Shown: in pieces, positions 1-10,370 of the stretch
Numbering within the stretch: the stretch's first letter is position 1
Layout of the letters: every line of letters starts with the position of its first letter
NCBI GenBank assembly: GCA_007713455.1
Contig: VMRT01000009.1
Location: 1 to 64,000, forward strand
Origin: Pseudomonas sp.
GTDB lineage: Bacteria; Pseudomonadota; Gammaproteobacteria; Pseudomonadales; Pseudomonadaceae
DNA: 64,000 nt
Direction: 5' to 3'
Notes under the pieces: model-generated
What the model saw: the letters and a program-made list of their open reading frames with translations, nothing else
The model's database searches: none
What the model was told of the DNA's origin: nothing
Made by a program: the position numbers and the translations under genes

Positions 1-382
1 GACCGACCTGCTGATCCTCGACGACTGGGGCCTGGCCCCGTTCACCGGCGAGCAACGGCGCGACATGCTGGAGCTACTGGACGACCGTTACGGCCAGCGC
101 TCGACCATCGTCACCAGCCAGATGCCGGTGGACAACTGGCACGAACTGATCGGCGATCCGACCCTGGCCGATGCCATCCTCGACCGCCTGGTGCACAACG
201 CTTATCGGATCAATCTGAAGGGTGAATCAATGCGCAAACGGACGCAGAAATTGACGACGCCAGCCAACCCGGACTAACAATGCCACCCCTGCGTCGCTGC
301 GCTCCGACTGCCTGTCCGAATGAGCGTGGAACAGGTGTCCGGATCAGCGTGGGCTGAGTGTCCGAATGGCGTGGAATCCGCA
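1..382 (+). mobile_element. Right end of an IS21-family insertion sequence
   Basis: The istB end is followed by about 100 bases with three imperfect copies of a TGTCCGAATnAGCGTGG-type motif, starting near 312, 335 and 356. The last copy runs into GTGGAATCCGCA, which ends at about 382. Repeated transposase-binding motifs inside the termini are typical of IS21 elements. The other end is outside the window, so neither the full length nor the target duplication can be read. The element abuts, and appears to be inserted into, an older transposase relic. Confidence 0.7.
2..277 (+). CDS. istB: IstB-like ATPase of an IS21-family element, C-terminal part (5' end outside window)
   Basis: This is the C-terminal part of the IS21-family helper ATPase, which works with the IstA transposase to choose and remodel target DNA. 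The reading frame is open from base 2 to the stop at 277, about 91 codons. It shows the AAA+ Walker B-like stretch LLILDDWGLAPF, the GQRSTIVTSQMP sensor segment and the typical end DRLVHNAYRINLKGESMRK. The P-loop and the istA gene must lie left of the window. The element's right terminus follows at about 382. The family is clear; whether the gene is intact cannot be judged from this part. Confidence 0.85.
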   Translation, partial: TDLLILDDWGLAPFTGEQRRDMLELLDDRYGQRSTIVTSQMPVDNWHELIGDPTLADAILDRLVHNAYRINLKGESMRKRTQKLTTPANPD

Positions 383-651
383 GCGATAGGCCAGGTTCAG
401 ATGCACCTCCTCGCACAACCGCCGCTCGGAACGGGCCGTAGCAGTAACCACCCACCAGCATGCGCACCACCAATTCCAGGTCAATCTGACGGGCGTCCGA
501 TGGGGCTTTAGAAATCGGCCAGGTGGGCGCGCAGGTCGTTGAGATCCAGGCGCTGGTCAATGCTGCGCAAGAGGTGTTGGGGCGGGACGTGCTCTTCCAG
601 ATTGAACGAGTAGAACAGCCGCTGCTGTCCTACCGGTAACTGCCCCGTCAT
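383..651 (-). pseudogene. Decayed IS1182/IS5-type transposase N-terminal relic
   Basis: On the minus strand, reading from the ATG at 651, the protein starts MTGQLPVGQQRLFYSFNLEE and continues with HLLRSIDQRLDLNDLRAHLADF. This is the N-terminal pattern of IS1182-like transposases. A TAA stop then interrupts it near 507. The homologous continuation appears in shifted frames as DLELVVRMLVGGYCYG and then RSERRLCEEVHLNLAYR, so there are at least one nonsense change and two frameshifts. The similarity stops at about 383, where the IS21 terminus begins. It is non-functional and marks repeated transposition at this site. Confidence 0.75.
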
Positions 652-826
652 GCTGCCTACCCCCATGCTTGCTGACGGCGTGATTTTGACGACGACACGG
701 GGCGACAGCCATTTTTTCAACAGAATCGGCCAGAAGCGGTCATTGACCAGTCGTAGTAATAGATCGACTGCACTACGATTGTGTCAAACAACTAAGGCTG
801 CTCAGGGAGCGGCAGGCCAGAAAAGC

Positions 827-2965
827 ATGCATATTTCTAAATTGACGCTGGTCAACTACCGAAACTTTAAGAATACGACCCTTCAGTTTCACAAGGGCGT
901 GAACACCATCATCGGCGAGAATGGCTCAGGTAAGTCGAACATACTGCGAGCGATCCGCCTTCTTCTAGACGACACAATGGTGCGCGCGGCTTACCGCTTG
1001 GATGAATCGGATTTCAGCCGCTCACTCGGTCAATGGCAGGGCCATTGGATCATCATCAGCATGGAATTCGAGGAGATCAGCACCGACGAATCAGTGCAGG
1101 CACTGTTCCTACACGGCACTGCCACGCTGGAAGATACGCCACTTCGCAAGGCGACTTATAACCTGATTTTCCGGCCCAAGAAAGAAATCCGGTTGAAGCT
1201 GGCTGACCTTGATCTTTTTGACGCTGACCAGCTCGCAGAGATCCGCGACACGATTACGATCGACGACTACGAAACGATTTTCACGGGGCGGAGCTGGGCT
1301 GACTTTAGCGATCCCGATGTGTACAAGGCCTTCGTTGGCGACTTCGATCTGTGTTGCTTCAACTCGGAGACGGAATTCCCGGACATCGGATCGAAGGTGC
1401 CCGGATTCCTCTCCGTTACCAAAGAGGTATCGCTGACTTTCATTCAAGCACTGCGTGACGTTGTTGCCGAGTTTCATAACAACCGTACCAACCCTTTGCT
1501 TACCCTGCTCAAGAGCAAAAGTGGGGAGATCAACCCCGCCACGATGCAACCGATTACTGAGTTGGTTCGCGAACTCAATACATCTATCGAGGATCTGGAT
1601 GATGTGCAGTCGGTTCGCAACCATATTCGCGAGACCATCAAGGACGCTGCGGGCGAAACCTACTCGCCGGCGTCACTTTCGATCAAATCTGATTTGCCCG
1701 AGGATGCCGATAAGCTTTTCCAGTCTCTACGGCTTTTCGTGGGCGAATCAGAAGAAGGGTACGAGGGTGCCATTCATGAATTGAGCCTGGGAGGGGCCAA
1801 CCTCATCTACCTGACGCTCAAGCTTCTGGAGTTCAAGTACCAGCGCGAAAAACTGGCCATGGCCAACTTCCTACTAATCGAGGAGCCGGAAGCGCACATC
1901 CATACCCACATCCAAAAAACCCTGTTCGACCGTATCGCATATAGCGATGCGCAGATCATTTACACCACCCATTCCACTCACATCTCCGAAGTGAGCAATG
2001 TCAGTAACGTCAACATTCTGGGACGTCACGGCTCCTTCTGTGAGGCCTACCAGCCAGCTGCAGGCCTTGAGCCCGTCCAGGTCACCAGCATCCAGCGTTA
2101 TCTTGATGCGGTACGTAGCAATCTACTCTTCGCCAAGAGTGTGATTCTCGTCGAAGGTGATGTGGAAGAAATCCTGATACCGATACTCGTCAAGCAGGTG
2201 CTGGGATTAAGCGTTGATGAACTGGGCATTAGCGTCATTAACATCCGCAGTACGGGCTTCAAAAATGTTGCAGTCCTGTTCCACGACCTGCGCATCCGAA
2301 AGCGGTGCGCTATCGTCACCGACCTCGATCAGGCCTTTTTCGACATCACACCACTACCCACCGATGCCCCTCCTACGGTAGCGAAAAAAGCCAAAGCGGC
2401 CGGTTCGCAGAAGTCAGGCTTGGAGCGAAAAGCTGATCTGGATGGGTTCATTACCGGCAACCCTTGGCTTGCGGCCTTCTACGCCAAACATACCTTCGAG
2501 GTCGACTTTGTCTCTGCCGGCAACCATGAGGCAGTTGTTCAGACTGTCCCGAAAGTCTACACGGACGATGCAACGATCAAGCAAGCCAAGGCGGAGCTCC
2601 AATCCGGAGAGTTAGGGCAAATGGGAAGCCGAACGCTGACGATGGCCAAGCAAGAGGGCAAGGGATGGTTCGCCATATTGCTTGCCGAGTATCTCACCAC
2701 TCAGATTCAGATCCCTGCCTACATCTTGCAAGCTATTCATTTTGCACACGGCCCCTTCTCCCACTCCCTGATTGGCAGAATCCTCCAGCATCGCGCCGAA
2801 TGCCTGTTCAGTTCCTGGCCTTCGTTCGCTACCCAGAAGAAGGATTTCCTGCTTGAGGTAGAGCGCTTTCAGCGAAACGAGATCAACCTGCAGGCCCTCA
2901 AAACAGCAGCCTTACTCATGATACCGGGGGACGCCATCAATGACTTTCTAGCGGAGATGACGTGA
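827..2965 (+). CDS. gajA: Gabija-like GajA: OLD-family ATPase/TOPRIM nuclease
   Basis: This 712-residue protein is an ABC-type ATPase fused to a TOPRIM nuclease, the architecture of OLD-family nucleases including GajA of the Gabija anti-phage system. The N-terminus reads MHISKLTLVNYRNF, with Walker A GENGSGKSN at residues 30-38. An ABC signature-like LSLGGANLIY is followed by Walker B LLIEEPEAHIH (Glu352) and the H-loop IIYTTHSTHIS. The TOPRIM part has VILVEGD (Glu443) and VTDLDQ (Asp499, Asp501). I chose the ATG at 827 because residues encoded upstream do not fit the family; its ribosome site is weak. The protein is longer than the Bacillus GajA (about 580 residues), with the extra length at the C-terminus. 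The UvrD-like partner overlaps its stop. The family is certain; the Gabija role is inferred from the pairing. Confidence 0.85.
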   Translation: MHISKLTLVNYRNFKNTTLQFHKGVNTIIGENGSGKSNILRAIRLLLDDTMVRAAYRLDESDFSRSLGQWQGHWIIISMEFEEISTDESVQALFLHGTATLEDTPLRKATYNLIFRPKKEIRLKLADLDLFDADQLAEIRDTITIDDYETIFTGRSWADFSDPDVYKAFVGDFDLCCFNSETEFPDIGSKVPGFLSVTKEVSLTFIQALRDVVAEFHNNRTNPLLTLLKSKSGEINPATMQPITELVRELNTSIEDLDDVQSVRNHIRETIKDAAGETYSPASLSIKSDLPEDADKLFQSLRLFVGESEEGYEGAIHELSLGGANLIYLTLKLLEFKYQREKLAMANFLLIEEPEAHIHTHIQKTLFDRIAYSDAQIIYTTHSTHISEVSNVSNVNILGRHGSFCEAYQPAAGLEPVQVTSIQRYLDAVRSNLLFAKSVILVEGDVEEILIPILVKQVLGLSVDELGISVINIRSTGFKNVAVLFHDLRIRKRCAIVTDLDQAFFDITPLPTDAPPTVAKKAKAAGSQKSGLERKADLDGFITGNPWLAAFYAKHTFEVDFVSAGNHEAVVQTVPKVYTDDATIKQAKAELQSGELGQMGSRTLTMAKQEGKGWFAILLAEYLTTQIQIPAYILQAIHFAHGPFSHSLIGRILQHRAECLFSSWPSFATQKKDFLLEVERFQRNEINLQALKTAALLMIPGDAINDFLAEMT

Positions 2966-4746
2966 TGTTCACCTGGGATCCCCAAGATCTTAATAGTGAG
3001 CAATCAGCGGCCGTCGTAGAGCCCTCGAGTGTTTTCCTGATTGCATGCCCTGGCAGCGGCAAGACGCGAACCCTGACCTACAAAATTGCCTACGAGCTGT
3101 CTCGACGCACTGACAAGCGGATCGTTGTAGCCATTACCTACACTCATCGCGCTGCCGATGAGATCCAAGAGCGTATCGAGGACCTAGGGATCGACACCTC
3201 CGGGCTATGGATCGGCACGATCCATGCTTTCTGCCTGGAGTGGATCATCAAGCCCTACGGCATTTACAGCCCCGCGCTCGCCCACGGCTACCGCGTCATC
3301 GACACACATGATCGCGAACTCCTGCTGGGAAGACTTTGCGAGCCATATCGAGGTGTCACCCACTGGGATTGCGATTACTACGTTACCGAAGCGGGGTATC
3401 ACCTTGGCTGTCCTGACACTCGAAAGCACGACGCAATACACAAGGTGCTAGCGGAGTACTTTAAAGAACTTACAGCGAGTCGACAGATCGACTTCGAGCA
3501 GATTCTGTGGCATGCCCATACCCTGATGCGAGATCAGGTGCACATCGCAGTTCTGCTCTCTCGAGTGTTTTCCCATGTTCTCGTGGATGAGTATCAGGAC
3601 ACCAAAAAGATCCAGTACAGCCTTGTGACGTCCATACTTCGCGCAGGCCGTGGGCAGACTAAGGCGTTCATCGTTGGCGACCCGAACCAAGCTATCTACG
3701 GCTCACTTGGTGGGTACGCGATGCCAGTGGCAGATTTTCGCGCCCAGGCTGGGATTCCGATTAAGGAAATGGCACTCAGCCGTAACTATCGATCCAGCGA
3801 GCGAATCATTAGCTACTTCTCGAATTTCAACGTGCATGCGACAAGTATCAAAAGCGCGGGCAAACATGCCGCGTTTCCCAGCCTGGTGACCTACAACCAG
3901 GAAGTAGCACATAGCGATGTGCATGACGAGCTGGTCAGATTGATTCAGTTGAGTCTCGCCGCCGGCAATTCACCCGAAAATATCTGCGTCCTAGGACCAT
4001 GGTGGATTCTGCTGGCCTCGACAACTCGCAAGCTGGTGACGATGCTACCTGACCAGCAATTCGATGGTCCGGGCCTAGTTCCTTTTAGCAACGACCCTGA
4101 TAACTTCTGGTTCAAGGTCTCCAAGATCTTGCTGACAGAGTCCTCTCCGAATCTGCTCGCTCGACGAATGCGCTGGGCAAATGACGTGATCAAAGACCTC
4201 GACGATTTCGGCGTCGACACCACACGACTGACGCCACGCATGCTGTTGCGGGAGTGCAACGCACTCGAAATCGATGAATCGGATGGACTCCGTTACCTGA
4301 ACCAGGCCTTCACCGACCTATTCGAGCGTCTCAACATCCCCCAAGAAAGCTTTCTTCCACTCCCGTCACTCCGGGAGGCTTTCTTCAGAAGCTCGGCAGC
4401 GAGAATTGAGAGGTTGCAGAGCGCTGGGGCGAGCTACATCAATCAAGTGTCATTCTTCAAGAAAGTGTTCCGTGAGCGGACCGGCATAACGGTTTCCACC
4501 ATCCATGGGGTCAAGGGGGCCGAGTTCGACGTTGTCATCGCCTTTGGCCTGTTGGAAGGCATGGTGCCGCACTTCAATGAAGCGAATGGGCACGTTGCCG
4601 CGAGCAAGCTCCTCTATGTATTGAGCTCACGTGCTCGCAAACATCTTCACTTGATCTCAGAGACGGGACGACCGCGAGGACGGTATGGGGTCTATTCCCC
4701 GACCGAGTCACTCGCGGCTTGCCACTTCATCTACGACTCGAACTAG
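2965..4746 (+). CDS. gajB: Gabija-like GajB: UvrD/Rep-type SF1A helicase
   Basis: This 593-residue superfamily 1A helicase has its motifs in order: Q-motif region LNSEQSAAV, Walker A ACPGSGKTRT, motif Ia TYTHRAADE, Walker B VLVDEYQDT, motif III GDPNQAIYG, motif IV SRNYRSS, motif V TIHGVKGAEFD and a motif VI-like LYVLSSRARKH. The ATG at 2965 overlaps the gajA stop (TGATG), implying translational coupling; a GTG at 2962 is the alternative. An OLD-type nuclease directly followed by a UvrD-like helicase defines Gabija, where the pair senses phage replication through nucleotide depletion and degrades DNA. That activity is known for Bacillus Gabija and inferred here. Base composition matches gajA and differs from the core genes. 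Confidence 0.85.
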   Translation: MFTWDPQDLNSEQSAAVVEPSSVFLIACPGSGKTRTLTYKIAYELSRRTDKRIVVAITYTHRAADEIQERIEDLGIDTSGLWIGTIHAFCLEWIIKPYGIYSPALAHGYRVIDTHDRELLLGRLCEPYRGVTHWDCDYYVTEAGYHLGCPDTRKHDAIHKVLAEYFKELTASRQIDFEQILWHAHTLMRDQVHIAVLLSRVFSHVLVDEYQDTKKIQYSLVTSILRAGRGQTKAFIVGDPNQAIYGSLGGYAMPVADFRAQAGIPIKEMALSRNYRSSERIISYFSNFNVHATSIKSAGKHAAFPSLVTYNQEVAHSDVHDELVRLIQLSLAAGNSPENICVLGPWWILLASTTRKLVTMLPDQQFDGPGLVPFSNDPDNFWFKVSKILLTESSPNLLARRMRWANDVIKDLDDFGVDTTRLTPRMLLRECNALEIDESDGLRYLNQAFTDLFERLNIPQESFLPLPSLREAFFRSSAARIERLQSAGASYINQVSFFKKVFRERTGITVSTIHGVKGAEFDVVIAFGLLEGMVPHFNEANGHVAASKLLYVLSSRARKHLHLISETGRPRGRYGVYSPTESLAACHFIYDSN

Positions 4747-5022
4747 GATCACTAGTCGACTTGGCCTCTAAGGGGGTCGACTGCGTTACCGTGAGAGACC
4801 TACATCCGCTTCTGGCCATCTTTTGCCTGATGCAACTGACCGCTGCGGGTCGCTCCCTGCCAGTCAGGGCACATGAAGCGTTCCGATCAGATTCGATGCA
4901 AATGACTGGTCAGGTCGAGTGCAAATGGGTGGGCAAGTCGGTGCAATTATCCAGGCAGATAAGGCTTCATACCATGTTGACGAGAAGCCGCCTCTCCCCG
5001 CGGACATTTCAGGAGCAATACC

Positions 5023-5301
5023 ATGACGATGGCCCATGAGCGCACCCGTAGCGTTGTTCAAACACGGGACTTCCTACAGGAGCTGGCTAGGGACACGAGC
5101 CTTCCTGAAAACGTACGGTACCAAGCAAATAATCTACTTCGGCATTACCCGACAGCAGAAGCCGTCTGGTTGGCTGGCCGAGTGGAAGAGCGATCCAAGC
5201 AAGAGCTTTCCCTATTGGCCGACAAGCATGGACCTCTACATCCGGTGTTAGTCAGCTGGCTGTTAAATGATCCGATGTTTTCTGATAACGGAACTAGCTG
5301 A
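5023..5301 (+). CDS. BPSL0761-family small protein
   Basis: This 92-residue protein starts MTMAHERTRSVVQTRDFL, with AGGAGC about ten bases before the ATG. The ERTR-V---R-FL-EL pattern, the SLPE--R--A--LLRHYP segment and the size match the uncharacterised BPSL0761 family, which in my experience is common in mobile islands of beta- and gammaproteobacteria. No enzymatic motif, signal peptide or membrane segment is visible, and the protein looks helical and charged. It lies 276 bases after gajB on the same strand, inside the island. Whether it belongs functionally to the defence module is unknown. Confidence 0.7.
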   Translation: MTMAHERTRSVVQTRDFLQELARDTSLPENVRYQANNLLRHYPTAEAVWLAGRVEERSKQELSLLADKHGPLHPVLVSWLLNDPMFSDNGTS

Positions 5302-5444
5302 GTCAGACCAAATGGGGGGCACTAGTACATTGCTTTACGTTGACCATGGTGAGCTTGTGAGGGCAAGCGGCGATCACCAGTCCATCAAACGTGATGAAGC
5401 TCTCTTTTTTTGACAAGAATTAAGATTTTTCGTGCATTTAGTAA

Positions 5445-5834
5445 TTCGTGGAATTCGTCGAAGATCACCAGGCCGACGCCTTCCAGCGCCGGGTCGTCCT
5501 GCAGCCGCCGCGCGAGAATGCCCTCGGTGACTACCTCGATGCGCGTGTTCGGCCCGACCTTGCTTTCCAGCCGGATGCGGTAGCCGACGGTTTCGCCGAC
5601 GCGCTCGCCCAGCTCACTGGCCAGCCGCTCAGCCGCTGCGCGGGCAGCCAGACGGCGCGGCTCCAGCATGATGATGCTCTGCCCGCCCAGCCAGGCTTCG
5701 TCGAGCAGCGCCAGCGGCACGCGAGTGGTCTTGCCGGCGCCGGGCGGTGCTTCGAGAACGGCTTCGTCGCGCTGTTGCAGGGCCTGGCGCAACGCCGGCA
5801 GGACTTCGTCGATCGGTAGGGAATTCATGGGCAC
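5445..5834 (-). pseudogene. hrpB: hrpB, ATP-dependent helicase, truncated after 130 codons by the island
   Basis: This is the N-terminal fragment of the DEAH-box helicase HrpB (normally about 830-850 residues). From the ATG at 5834 it shows the Walker A motif [13 protein letters not shown], motif Ia [16 protein letters not shown], the segment [15 protein letters not shown] and Walker [10 protein letters not shown]. Family members continue with HERSLQADL. Here, after Glu130 (about base 5445), the sequence changes abruptly to AT-rich DNA encoding [10 protein letters not shown] and stops at 5385. The remaining roughly 700 codons are not in the window. The gene is therefore broken and should encode no helicase unless an intact copy exists elsewhere. 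Confidence 0.9.
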
Positions 5835-8279: not shown

Positions 8280-8759
8280 ATGAGCAAACTAGATCGCTAC
8301 GACCTGCGCATCCTCGCCGAATTGCAGCACGACGCCCGCATCTCCAACCAGGAACTGGCAGAACGCATCGGCCTGTCACCCTCGCCCTGCTCCCGCCGGG
8401 TCAAACAGCTGGAAGACGACGGCTACATTGCCCGCCAGGTCGCCCTGCTCGACCGCAAGAAGCTCGGCCTGACCCTTACCGCCTACGTGCTTATCGGCAT
8501 GGACCGGCACACACCGGAGCGCTTCGAGCACTTCGAAGGCGTGATCGGCAAATGCCCGGAGGTGCTCGAATGCAGCCTGGTCACGGGGATGGACGCCGAC
8601 TACCAACTCAAGGTCGTGGTGCCCGACATGGAGCATTACCAGCAGTTTCTGCTCGGCACCCTGACGCGCATCGAAGGCGTCTCCAGCGTGCGTTCCAGCT
8701 TCGTGTTGCGCCAGGTGTCATCGAGTACGGAGCTGCCGCTGGAGCATTTGCGCAGCTGA
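8280..8759 (+). CDS. Lrp/AsnC-family transcriptional regulator
   Basis: This 159-residue regulator has an N-terminal winged helix (residues 1-60: LDRYDLRILAELQHDARISN and ELAERIGLSPSPCSRRVKQL). It is followed by the RAM/AsnC ligand-binding domain with VLECSLVTGMDADYQLKVVV. Size and layout are standard for the family, whose members bind amino acids and control transport or catabolic genes as octamers. The target and effector cannot be told from the sequence. The nearest gene rightwards is the globin, 164 bases away; no divergent partner gene is present. Confidence 0.9.
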   Translation: MSKLDRYDLRILAELQHDARISNQELAERIGLSPSPCSRRVKQLEDDGYIARQVALLDRKKLGLTLTAYVLIGMDRHTPERFEHFEGVIGKCPEVLECSLVTGMDADYQLKVVVPDMEHYQQFLLGTLTRIEGVSSVRSSFVLRQVSSSTELPLEHLRS

Positions 8760-8923
8760 GACACCGCTCACAGCTTTCGCCCCACACTTCGCAGGGTTGC
8801 TGCCTATAATCCGCCCCCTTCTGCACCGCCTCGCATACGCTATGATCCCGGCCGGGGCGGATCGTCCATCGCCTGCTCACCGGCGGGCCTCGCTGCAAAA
8901 TGCCCTCGTGCAAGGGAATGCCC

Positions 8924-9316
8924 ATGAAAGACACCAACCGCGTCATGCAGAGCTACGGCCGCTGCTGCGCCAGTCCCGACTTCTTCGATGACTTCTATGC
9001 GTCCTTCCTCGCCAGCTCGCCTGCGATCCGGGAGAAGTTCGTGCGCACCGACATGACCGCGCAGAAACAGCTGCTGCGCGCCGGCATTCTCAATCTGGTG
9101 CTGTTCGCCCGCGGCATGCCGGATACCAAACTCCGCGCGCTGGGCAAAAGCCATTCACGCGAGCAGCTGAATATCCACCCGGAACTCTATGACCTGTGGA
9201 TCGCGGCGTTGCTGAAAACCATCGGCCAGCACGACGGGGAGCTGCAACAGCAGGACCTGCAGGCCTGGCGCACGGTGCTGAACAAGGGCATCGACGTGAT
9301 CAAGGCGGCCTACTGA
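8924..9316 (+). CDS. Single-domain globin
   Basis: This roughly 130-residue protein has a globin-like helical pattern. A-B helices include VMQSYGRCCASPDFFDDFY and the E helix region is TAQKQLLRAGILNLVLFA. A candidate proximal histidine lies in LGKSHSREQL, and a C-terminal H helix follows (WRTVLNKGIDVIKAAY). Start: the ATG at 8924 is preceded by AAGGG at good spacing, whereas the upstream in-frame ATGs at 8900 and 8918 lack a site. Proteins of this type in pseudomonads are labelled globin, with a heme-based sensing or detoxification role unproven. It is followed 175 bases later by a DUF2788 gene. Confidence 0.75.
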   Translation: MKDTNRVMQSYGRCCASPDFFDDFYASFLASSPAIREKFVRTDMTAQKQLLRAGILNLVLFARGMPDTKLRALGKSHSREQLNIHPELYDLWIAALLKTIGQHDGELQQQDLQAWRTVLNKGIDVIKAAY

Positions 9317-9491
9317 ATACCGGTGAGACATTTCGCCGCACCGGCGCCCGCCTCGCGCGATCCGAACGCTTTCCGAGCTCGACCGTCCAACCAGCGGTGG
9401 CACACGCGCCGACTAATGCCGGCGTATACTGCGCCGCTTTCGCGCCCGGCCTGCCACGGGCGCATTCGTCGAAGTCAGTCAGGAGATCCCT

Positions 9492-9710
9492 GTGGAGCCC
9501 GAAGTTTTCGAAAAGTGGATGATGATCGTGCTCGTCGGCGGGCTGATGGCCTTCATGGCGTTCATCATCTGGGACCTGGCCAAGAAGTCGAAGGCCGGTC
9601 GCCTCGGCACTGCCATTCTCTTTCTCGGCCTGGGCCTGTGCCTGTTCGCCTTTCTCGCCAAGCCGGTCATCGGTTACGTCATCGAAGTCACTCAGGGCAT
9701 CCCGCACTGA
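9492..9710 (+). CDS. DUF2788 small inner-membrane protein
   Basis: This 72-residue protein with a GTG start has CAGGAG six bases upstream. It has two hydrophobic helices, roughly residues 9-28 (WMMIVLVGGLMAFMAFII) and 40-60, separated by a KKSKAGR loop, and ends VIEVTQGIPH. Size and sequence fit the conserved DUF2788 family of gammaproteobacteria, whose function is not known. It converges with rluE, its stop lying 22 bases from the rluE stop. Confidence 0.8.
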   Translation: MEPEVFEKWMMIVLVGGLMAFMAFIIWDLAKKSKAGRLGTAILFLGLGLCLFAFLAKPVIGYVIEVTQGIPH

Positions 9711-9731
9711 GTTGAGCCGCCAGCCGGTGCA

Positions 9732-10370
9732 CTACAGCTGCGCCGGCACCTCCCGCCACTCACCCGGCTGCAGGCCATCGAGCGCCCACGGCCCGATGCG
9801 CACCCGCACCAGACGCAGGGTCGGCAACCCGACCGCCGCCGTCATGCGTCTGACCTGGCGATTACGCCCTTCGCGGATCACCAATTCCAGCCAGCTGGTC
9901 GGCACGCTCTTGCGAAAGCGCACCGGCGGGTTGCGCGGCCATAGCTCGGGCTCGTCCAGCTGCCGCGCTTCGGCGGGCAGGGTCAGGCCGTCATTGAGCT
10001 GGACGCCATCGCGCAAGCGCTGCAGCTGCTCGGCGCTGACCTCACCCTCCACCTGCACCCAGTAGGTCTTCGGCAGCTTGTGCTTGGGGTCGGCGATGCG
10101 CGCCTGCAACTGACCGTCGTTGGTCAAGAGCAGCAGCCCCTCGCTGTCGCGATCCAGCCGGCCAGCCGGATAGACGCCCGGCACCTGCACGTAATCCTTC
10201 AGCGTCCCGCGGCCATCGGCATCGTTGAATTGCGTAAGCACGTCGAACGGCTTGTTCAGCAACAACAGGCGCGGCTCGGCCGGCGGTGCCTTGGCCACGC
10301 GCCGCGGCGCGGATGGGCGCGCGGTTCGTGCAGGCGGACGCGAGGATGGAGGACGCGGTGGACGGGGCAT
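9732..10370 (-). CDS. rluE: 23S rRNA pseudouridine synthase RluE-type
   Basis: This 212-residue enzyme belongs to the RsuA/RluB/E/F pseudouridine synthase family. The catalytic motif is [19 protein letters not shown], with the Asp after RL as nucleophile. Further family motifs are [12 protein letters not shown] and [20 protein letters not shown]. There is no S4 domain. Instead the first 30 residues form a Pro/Arg-rich basic tail, as is usual for RluE (which modifies U2457 of 23S rRNA in E. coli). The gene is divergent from urtA, with 291 bases between the starts. Confidence 0.9.

Follow-up and report, generated by a model that had tools for sequence, protein, structure and literature searches.

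We analysed a stretch of 64,000 nucleotides (the window; positions 1 to 64,000 of contig VMRT01000009.1, Pseudomonas sp. assembly GCA_007713455.1) and found two overlapping genes, gajA (827-2965, + strand) and gajB (2962-4746, + strand), which are supported by sequence comparison as a predicted complete Gabija anti-phage system. It is very likely that this Gabija is the cargo of a tyrosine-recombinase island, which is inserted in hrpB and carries a recoded spare hrpB, and which probably reached the chromosome from a megaplasmid like pPUV-14.

The gajAB pair and the long GajA

GajA (712 amino acids, aa) matched PADLOC model PDLC00072 with E 0 and 1048.7 bits (residues 1-711 on 1-708 of 709), and GajB matched PDLC00127 with E 9.3e-249 and 824.9 bits (2-593 on 1-593 of 594). 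With such scores the observation of the two genes is not due to chance, and neither protein differs in length from its model. Both proteins being covered end to end, the pairing is matched with Gabija, as a previous reading of the DNA without database searches (the sequence-only reading) had proposed. Pfam matches above cut-off were AAA_15 (6.5e-33, residues 1-386) and OLD-like_TOPRIM (1.6e-16) in GajA, and UvrD-helicase (5.3e-45) and UvrD_C (1.9e-11) in GajB. The stop codon of gajA overlaps with the start of gajB as TGATG at 2962-2965, and GajB has 594 aa from GTG at 2962 or 593 aa from ATG at 2965. It means that the description as OLD-family ATPase/TOPRIM protein followed by UvrD-like helicase with stop-start overlap was right.

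Using the GajA protein as query, 213 loci were found in the genome collection, and the best 80 of the 213 are called relatives here. The methionine start at 827 lies in a longer frame (650-2965); it is supported by the matches, which begin at residue 1 in all relatives (80 rows) except L013, which is at a contig edge. gajB adjoins gajA in 78 of the 81 loci, window included, and this pairing spans several phyla by record title. It is missing at L006, L019 and L081. Because counting required a complete open reading frame and both L019 and L081 are near contig ends, their gajB may be cut genes.

The Walker A motif GENGSGKS is at GajA residues 30-37. G30, E31, N32, G35, K36, Glu443, Asp499 and Asp501 are invariant in an alignment of 49 sequences (window and 48 of the 80 relatives), which confirms the Walker A and catalytic residues picked out earlier. 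Glu443 corresponds by alignment with E379 of Bacillus cereus GajA (BcGajA), while Asp499 and Asp501 correspond with D432 and D434 by position and DxD motif; these three are the Toprim residues given for BcGajA (PMC10781630). The Toprim domain covers 434-501 and on, and its helical insert is the helix 515-542 of the predicted structure. BpOLD and XccOLD, which are class 2 OLD nucleases, have the same Toprim with helical insert, and the insert is named as a class 2 OLD feature in PMC10568477. By sequence, the best solved relative of GajA was 6nk8 (8.9e-14), the class 2 OLD C-terminal region from Burkholderia pseudomallei, with BcGajA chains at about 1e-10; for GajB it was UvrD (1.5e-32), with GajB chains at about 1e-12.

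The structure model of GajA, built on the 49-sequence alignment, had a mean predicted local distance difference test score (pLDDT) of 79.1. Its best structural matches covering residues 1-644 were solved GajA chains, and BcGajA chain 8x5i_D aligned at Z 20.7 with a root-mean-square deviation (rmsd) of 4.8 over 489 residues, model 1-644 on chain 1-576. The solved C-terminal region of BpOLD aligned to GajA 434-642 (Z 18.1, rmsd 2.5, 183 aligned, 27% identity) and ends where the C-terminal tail starts. The gene pair, its domains, its catalytic residues and its conserved pairing are thus observed directly, and the GajA fold is that of Gabija in the model. The window pair shares with the Gabija of B. 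cereus VD045 the two-gene operon, the ABC ATPase-Toprim nuclease with UvrD-like helicase, the catalytic residues and the fold over 1-644.

Three results on the GajA model weigh against the identification. Identity in the structural alignments of solved GajA chains was just 14-20%. The ATPase half was modelled weakly, with pLDDT below 50 at 95-103, 209-221, 279-281, 307-314 and 356-362. Over the ATPase part only, SMC and cohesin heads reached nearly the same Z (8rok_C, Z 19.2, rmsd 16.9, 298 aligned).

GajA has 134 residues more than BcGajA, of which about 68 are within 1-644, mostly in the ATPase half, and 68 in the tail. Counted from the N-terminus, the excess reaches 4 at residue 93, 61 at residue 334, 64 at Glu443 and 67 at Asp499; the correspondence of Glu443, Asp499 and Asp501 with E379, D432 and D434 therefore places 64 extra residues ahead of the Toprim glutamate. 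The earlier statement that the excess lies at the C-terminus after the TOPRIM core stands for the tail but not for the other half. The tail (residues 645-712; 2759-2962, + strand), which lies beyond the BcGajA end, has four helices in the full-length model (646-661, 665-682, 688-698, 703-709), with pLDDT 81-94 per ten-residue block from 641. When residues 631-712 were modelled alone, with 61 of the 80 relatives, five helices were obtained at pLDDT 93.7. In the tail, gaps were below 20% per column except at the last residue (80-sequence alignment). It is also the least conserved part of GajA, with a mean column majority of 0.41 versus 0.85 for 431-505, measured on the window and 79 of the 80 relatives (L006 dropped).

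No significant fold match of the tail was found: the best Foldseek E was 2.8, and the best hit with VIA (Z 7.1, rmsd 3.6, 78 aligned) is in the range common for helical bundles. Pfam has no separate domain for it, and there was none among the best 25 families in PADLOC and NCBIfam. Since the tail comes out of the prediction as compact and helical, the added domain suggested before is plausible, but no known fold could be assigned. We guess that it has a role in protein contact, GajA with GajB or within the tetramer.

GajA has 709-713 aa in 69 of the 80 relatives, 717 in one and 736-738 in eight, and is short in two (L006 with a broken frame, L013 at the contig edge). The long GajA is a length-constant, widespread subfamily, already catalogued as PDLC00072 (709 positions), and the 68-residue helical domain is predicted to be an integral part of it. 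The possible subtype of the sequence-only reading therefore exists as a subfamily, but is not new. The eight relatives with 736-738 aa, which exceed the others by about 25, are L063, L067, L068, L073, L074, L076, L077 and L081.

It could be asked if the long GajA is a functional subtype, in which the tail gives a new activity or partner and which is mechanistically not Gabija proper. The tail beyond the BcGajA end, with few gaps and folding alone with high confidence, would agree with this, and so would the extra length of GajB, about 100 aa over the B. cereus chain of 494 residues. But the tail is the least conserved part and lacks a significant fold or Pfam match, and the catalytic residues are invariant. 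We consider such a subtype unlikely. That GajA is a non-Gabija OLD protein beside an unrelated helicase is very improbable and largely refuted: the low identity with solved GajA and the sequence E of about 1e-10 to GajA chains would allow it, but the full-length matches to the paired PADLOC models, the pairing across several phyla and the Toprim helical insert in the model stand against it, and on sequence profiles the best match was not a non-Gabija OLD clade without helicase.

For a complete Gabija system we propose a mechanism taken over from characterised Gabija. There the GajA tetramer is described as braced by GajB dimers (PMC10781630), and the ATPase part as a nucleotide-responsive gate on the Toprim nuclease (PMC12796447). 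For P. aeruginosa PA14, linear DNA unattended by RecBCD is the reported target of Gabija, and the action is described as non-abortive, versus an earlier abortive report (PMC12407980). GajA of the window would be a class 2 OLD nuclease, forming a tetramer with clustered ATPases and peripheral Toprim nucleases, and would bind the UvrD-like GajB. Its nuclease would be shut while nucleotide is bound; once released, it would act on phage DNA by cutting or blocking, with linear ends free of RecBCD as the most likely target. Oligomer, gating, target and phage protection are ascribed to the window pair by analogy, and the trigger is the least certain part. Because the identity to solved GajA is 14-20%, gating and specificity may differ. 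The PA14 system, likened here by its description in PMC12407980, is also island-borne and needs both genes, whereas its vehicle, PAPI-1, differs from the hrpB island of the window.

Other genes accompany gajA in some loci. An exonuclease-type gene (median 306 aa) was beside it in 10 of 81, for example L024:4789-5709 and L036:8880-9944; in eight it ends upstream, at most 202 bases away, and in two it starts no more than 260 bases past gajB. It matched RNase_T in L036 and the PRK09182 3'-5' exonuclease in L024, and a Gabija form of three genes is possible. In 7 of 81 loci (L025-L029, L031 at 8486-9895 or equivalent, and L059) a Shedu SduA-type gene was present upstream of gajA; six had one near-identical arrangement across different genera, and two of the seven were profile-tested. 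Three of 81 loci, L050 and L054 among them, have a gene that stops 102-143 bases ahead of gajA and is of a family with AbiJ_NTD4 domain, as tested in L054.

The split hrpB and its island

An N-terminal remnant of chromosomal hrpB (5449-5834, - strand; TIGR01970 positions 1-125, E 7e-65) was found in the window, broken after codons FDEFH, and HrpB positions 121-825 were on another contig of the genome, C29 (134198-136348). Another genome of the same species has an uninterrupted hrpB. There a single stretch of 16.5 kb could be aligned both with the window, starting at 5446 and running outwards (96.1%), and with the C29 side (97.5%), and the two alignments overlapped by three bases. As both sides are contiguous there, the two halves are one gene split by an insert. 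The cargo end of the island is at 5424-5448: identity with the plasmid discussed below ends at 5448, and identity with hrpB begins at 5446-5449.

Adjoining the C29 half there were four co-directional genes of 767, 695, 201 and 473 aa. The 473-aa product had a Phage_integrase domain above cut-off (1.9e-17), the 695-aa product a weak match below it (0.032) and the 767-aa product none; we infer that the 767-, 695- and 473-aa genes are tyrosine recombinases. Past the 473-aa gene was an intact, divergent hrpB (12952-15492 of L089), followed by an AbiEi-like gene. The island junctions carry related terminal sequences. No model of the gamma-mobile-trio (Gmt), for which NCBIfam has models, was among the NCBIfam matches of the four genes.

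Among the matches listed, an hrpB fragment ending at position 124-126 was present in 14 of 56 genus genomes, and 12 of these 14 also had a C-terminal fragment starting at 121-124. The 695-aa recombinase was in 13 of the 56, all 13 with split hrpB. In the family, the 473-aa recombinase was found in 25 of 298 sampled genomes and 5 of 19 genera. Nine genomes (L116, L118, L120, L122, L124, L126, L128, L134, L136) had island hrpB copies 100% alike (rounded), while their chromosomal remnants were 74-97% identical, so the hrpB copy travels with the island. The island hrpB of the present genome had 95-96% identity with two other copies and 68% with those of the nine genomes. At the insertion point, 16 island-type copies read DE[YF]H-LR and three uninterrupted chromosomal copies DEFH-ER; DExH is helicase motif II. 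Mismatches to the 17-position site consensus GARTTCYWCGARCGCAG were 5-8 in the 16 island copies and 0-1 in the three chromosomal ones; because this consensus was drawn from the scored sites, it is the contrast with the island copies alone that counts.

This last point is one of several that limit the island reading. Split hrpB was found in G041 without the recombinase, two of the 16 island-type copies (L140, L141a) are in genomes without a recombinase match, and the copy of L146 aligns in pieces near the N-terminus. The pieces of the island are on several contigs and were not assembled end to end.

One may suppose that hrpB simply decayed and that Gabija landed nearby by IS21 transposition, with no site-specific island. 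The window begins at base 1 of its contig (C20), and at 2-277 (+ strand) there is the C-terminal end of istB, IS21 family (NCBIfam NF038214 IstB, E 2.6e-33), truncated at the contig edge and about 550 bp upstream of gajA. The IS21 end, and the island known from a draft contig rather than end to end, would fit this. But the break was at the same codons in the 14 genomes mentioned and in 13 of 13 recombinase-bearing ones, the junctions have related terminal sequences, the same-species genome joins both halves, and plasmid identity stops at the hrpB junction, so simple decay is hardly credible. The transposon debris and broken core gene noticed earlier are, respectively, this istB end and hrpB positions 1-125. 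The lower GC content was also right (0.525-0.584 per kb over 1-5000, 0.595-0.695 downstream of 5000).

Between gajB and the cargo end, a BPSL0761-family small protein is encoded at 5023-5301 (+ strand; NF041728, E 1.3e-25). It is common to other hrpB islands: 13 island loci gave DNA matches to it at 92-98% identity, some of them truncated where the locus ends.

L141 (G054:C33:272500-284600) has two hrpB genes about 8 kb apart, of HLR and HER types, and no recombinase match; the match of the HER type stops near the 3' end, and L141 is perhaps a related element using another site. G047 has the same recombinase on two contigs (C1:4991358-4992710 and C2:21488-22840), the latter with coordinates about those of the match on plasmid CP136011.1, and among the matches listed only the N-terminal piece of hrpB. 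The 695-aa recombinase matched as two pieces lying side by side in the islands of G003, G009 and G043 (L120, L122, L134), which may therefore have lost mobility.

Recombinase operons with cargo are known from other elements. Tn554 has such an operon with cargo and a travelling spacer. GInt islands, as described in PMC5385486, share an operon of tyrosine-recombinase-like genes with a small protein, site-specific insertion and cargo; in their ginABCD, three integrase genes are followed by a small gene adjoining the cargo, whereas in the present island the small gene (201 aa) is third and the 473-aa recombinase adjoins the cargo. It is not filed as GInt, but works like one. SE elements, with the core intA-tfp-intB-srap and a 6-bp spacer between inverted ends that travels (PMC10214605), resemble it in recombinase operon and site-specific insertion, and a travelling hexamer would fit their spacer, but their donor hexamer is said to be at the far end, opposite to the recombinase end where the hexamer would lie here. 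What sets the present island apart from GInt, SE and Tn554 is that its target gene is also part of it, as a recoded copy. A single sentence in PMC8373256 mentions hrpB as a site of islands; two of the four sources cited for that sentence (PMC4821235, PMC7809047) do not mention hrpB. In the literature searched we met no description of a replacement hrpB on an island, which is no proof of absence.

The plasmid link and its meaning

Window positions 1-5448 were identical, with 0 mismatches, to pPUV-14 (NZ_MT732192.1), a P. aeruginosa plasmid of 421,847 bp typed conjugative, and the identity ends at the hrpB junction. At the istB position this plasmid has complete istAB annotated as ISPpu7 family, and contig C27 of the present genome was 99.99% identical to the adjacent part of the plasmid over a length of 7,202 bp. 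No literature was found under the name pPUV-14. For two tested stretches of plasmid backbone, nothing beyond matches of about 100 bp (72-77%) turned up in the present genome. The plasmid flank was found in 111 plasmid records, and the two examined showed an empty site GAGTTCTTCGAACGCAG, close to hrpB GAATTCCACGAGCGCAG. The junction on C29 reads AAAG-TCTTCG-AGCGCAG, in which the hexamer matches the plasmid at 6 of 6 letters, versus TCCACG of hrpB. As in elements with travelling spacer, this points to a move from plasmid to chromosome.

Some results count against this move. TCTTCG shares 4 of 6 letters with TCCACG of hrpB itself, and TCGTCG of the unrelated locus L148 does the same. Among the other 15 far junctions TGCGTG occurs in nine and TGCTTG in two, one hexamer thus recurring in many hosts. 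The 473-aa recombinase is absent from pPUV-14 (10 plasmid records match it), and in the 12 of 22 plasmid records listed, coverage of the recombinase-hrpB stretch stayed at about 1% or below. The plasmid copy is therefore incomplete, and the direction of movement is inferred. We regard a megaplasmid like pPUV-14 as the probable source of the chromosomal island.

A relative of the long GajA at E<=1e-50 was present in 109 plasmid records, 78 of them typed conjugative, but a whole-profile GajA match was found in only one of 56 genus genomes, the present one, so Gabija is a variable cargo. We lean, with some reserve, to the view that this island family kills hrpB at its conserved DExH box when it enters and supplies a complete hrpB of its own, recoded over the attachment site in a way that blocks self-insertion. 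Defence cargo such as Gabija would be shuttled by it, with hrpB-like pseudo-sites as its targets on conjugative megaplasmids and hrpB itself on chromosomes; the far-junction hexamer would record the donor replicon.

The question of the long GajA is closed: it is a known, widespread subfamily, with a C-terminal domain that is borne out by structure prediction. More worth following is the mobile context, and in it mainly the replacement hrpB with its recoded site. If the wider view is true, the island would be a clean case of a mobile element which destroys and substitutes a conserved host gene, and the spare hrpB bears on why insertion into hrpB is tolerated. The hexamer would be a possible trace of the donor replicon, suggesting one route by which defence systems may pass from megaplasmid to chromosome.

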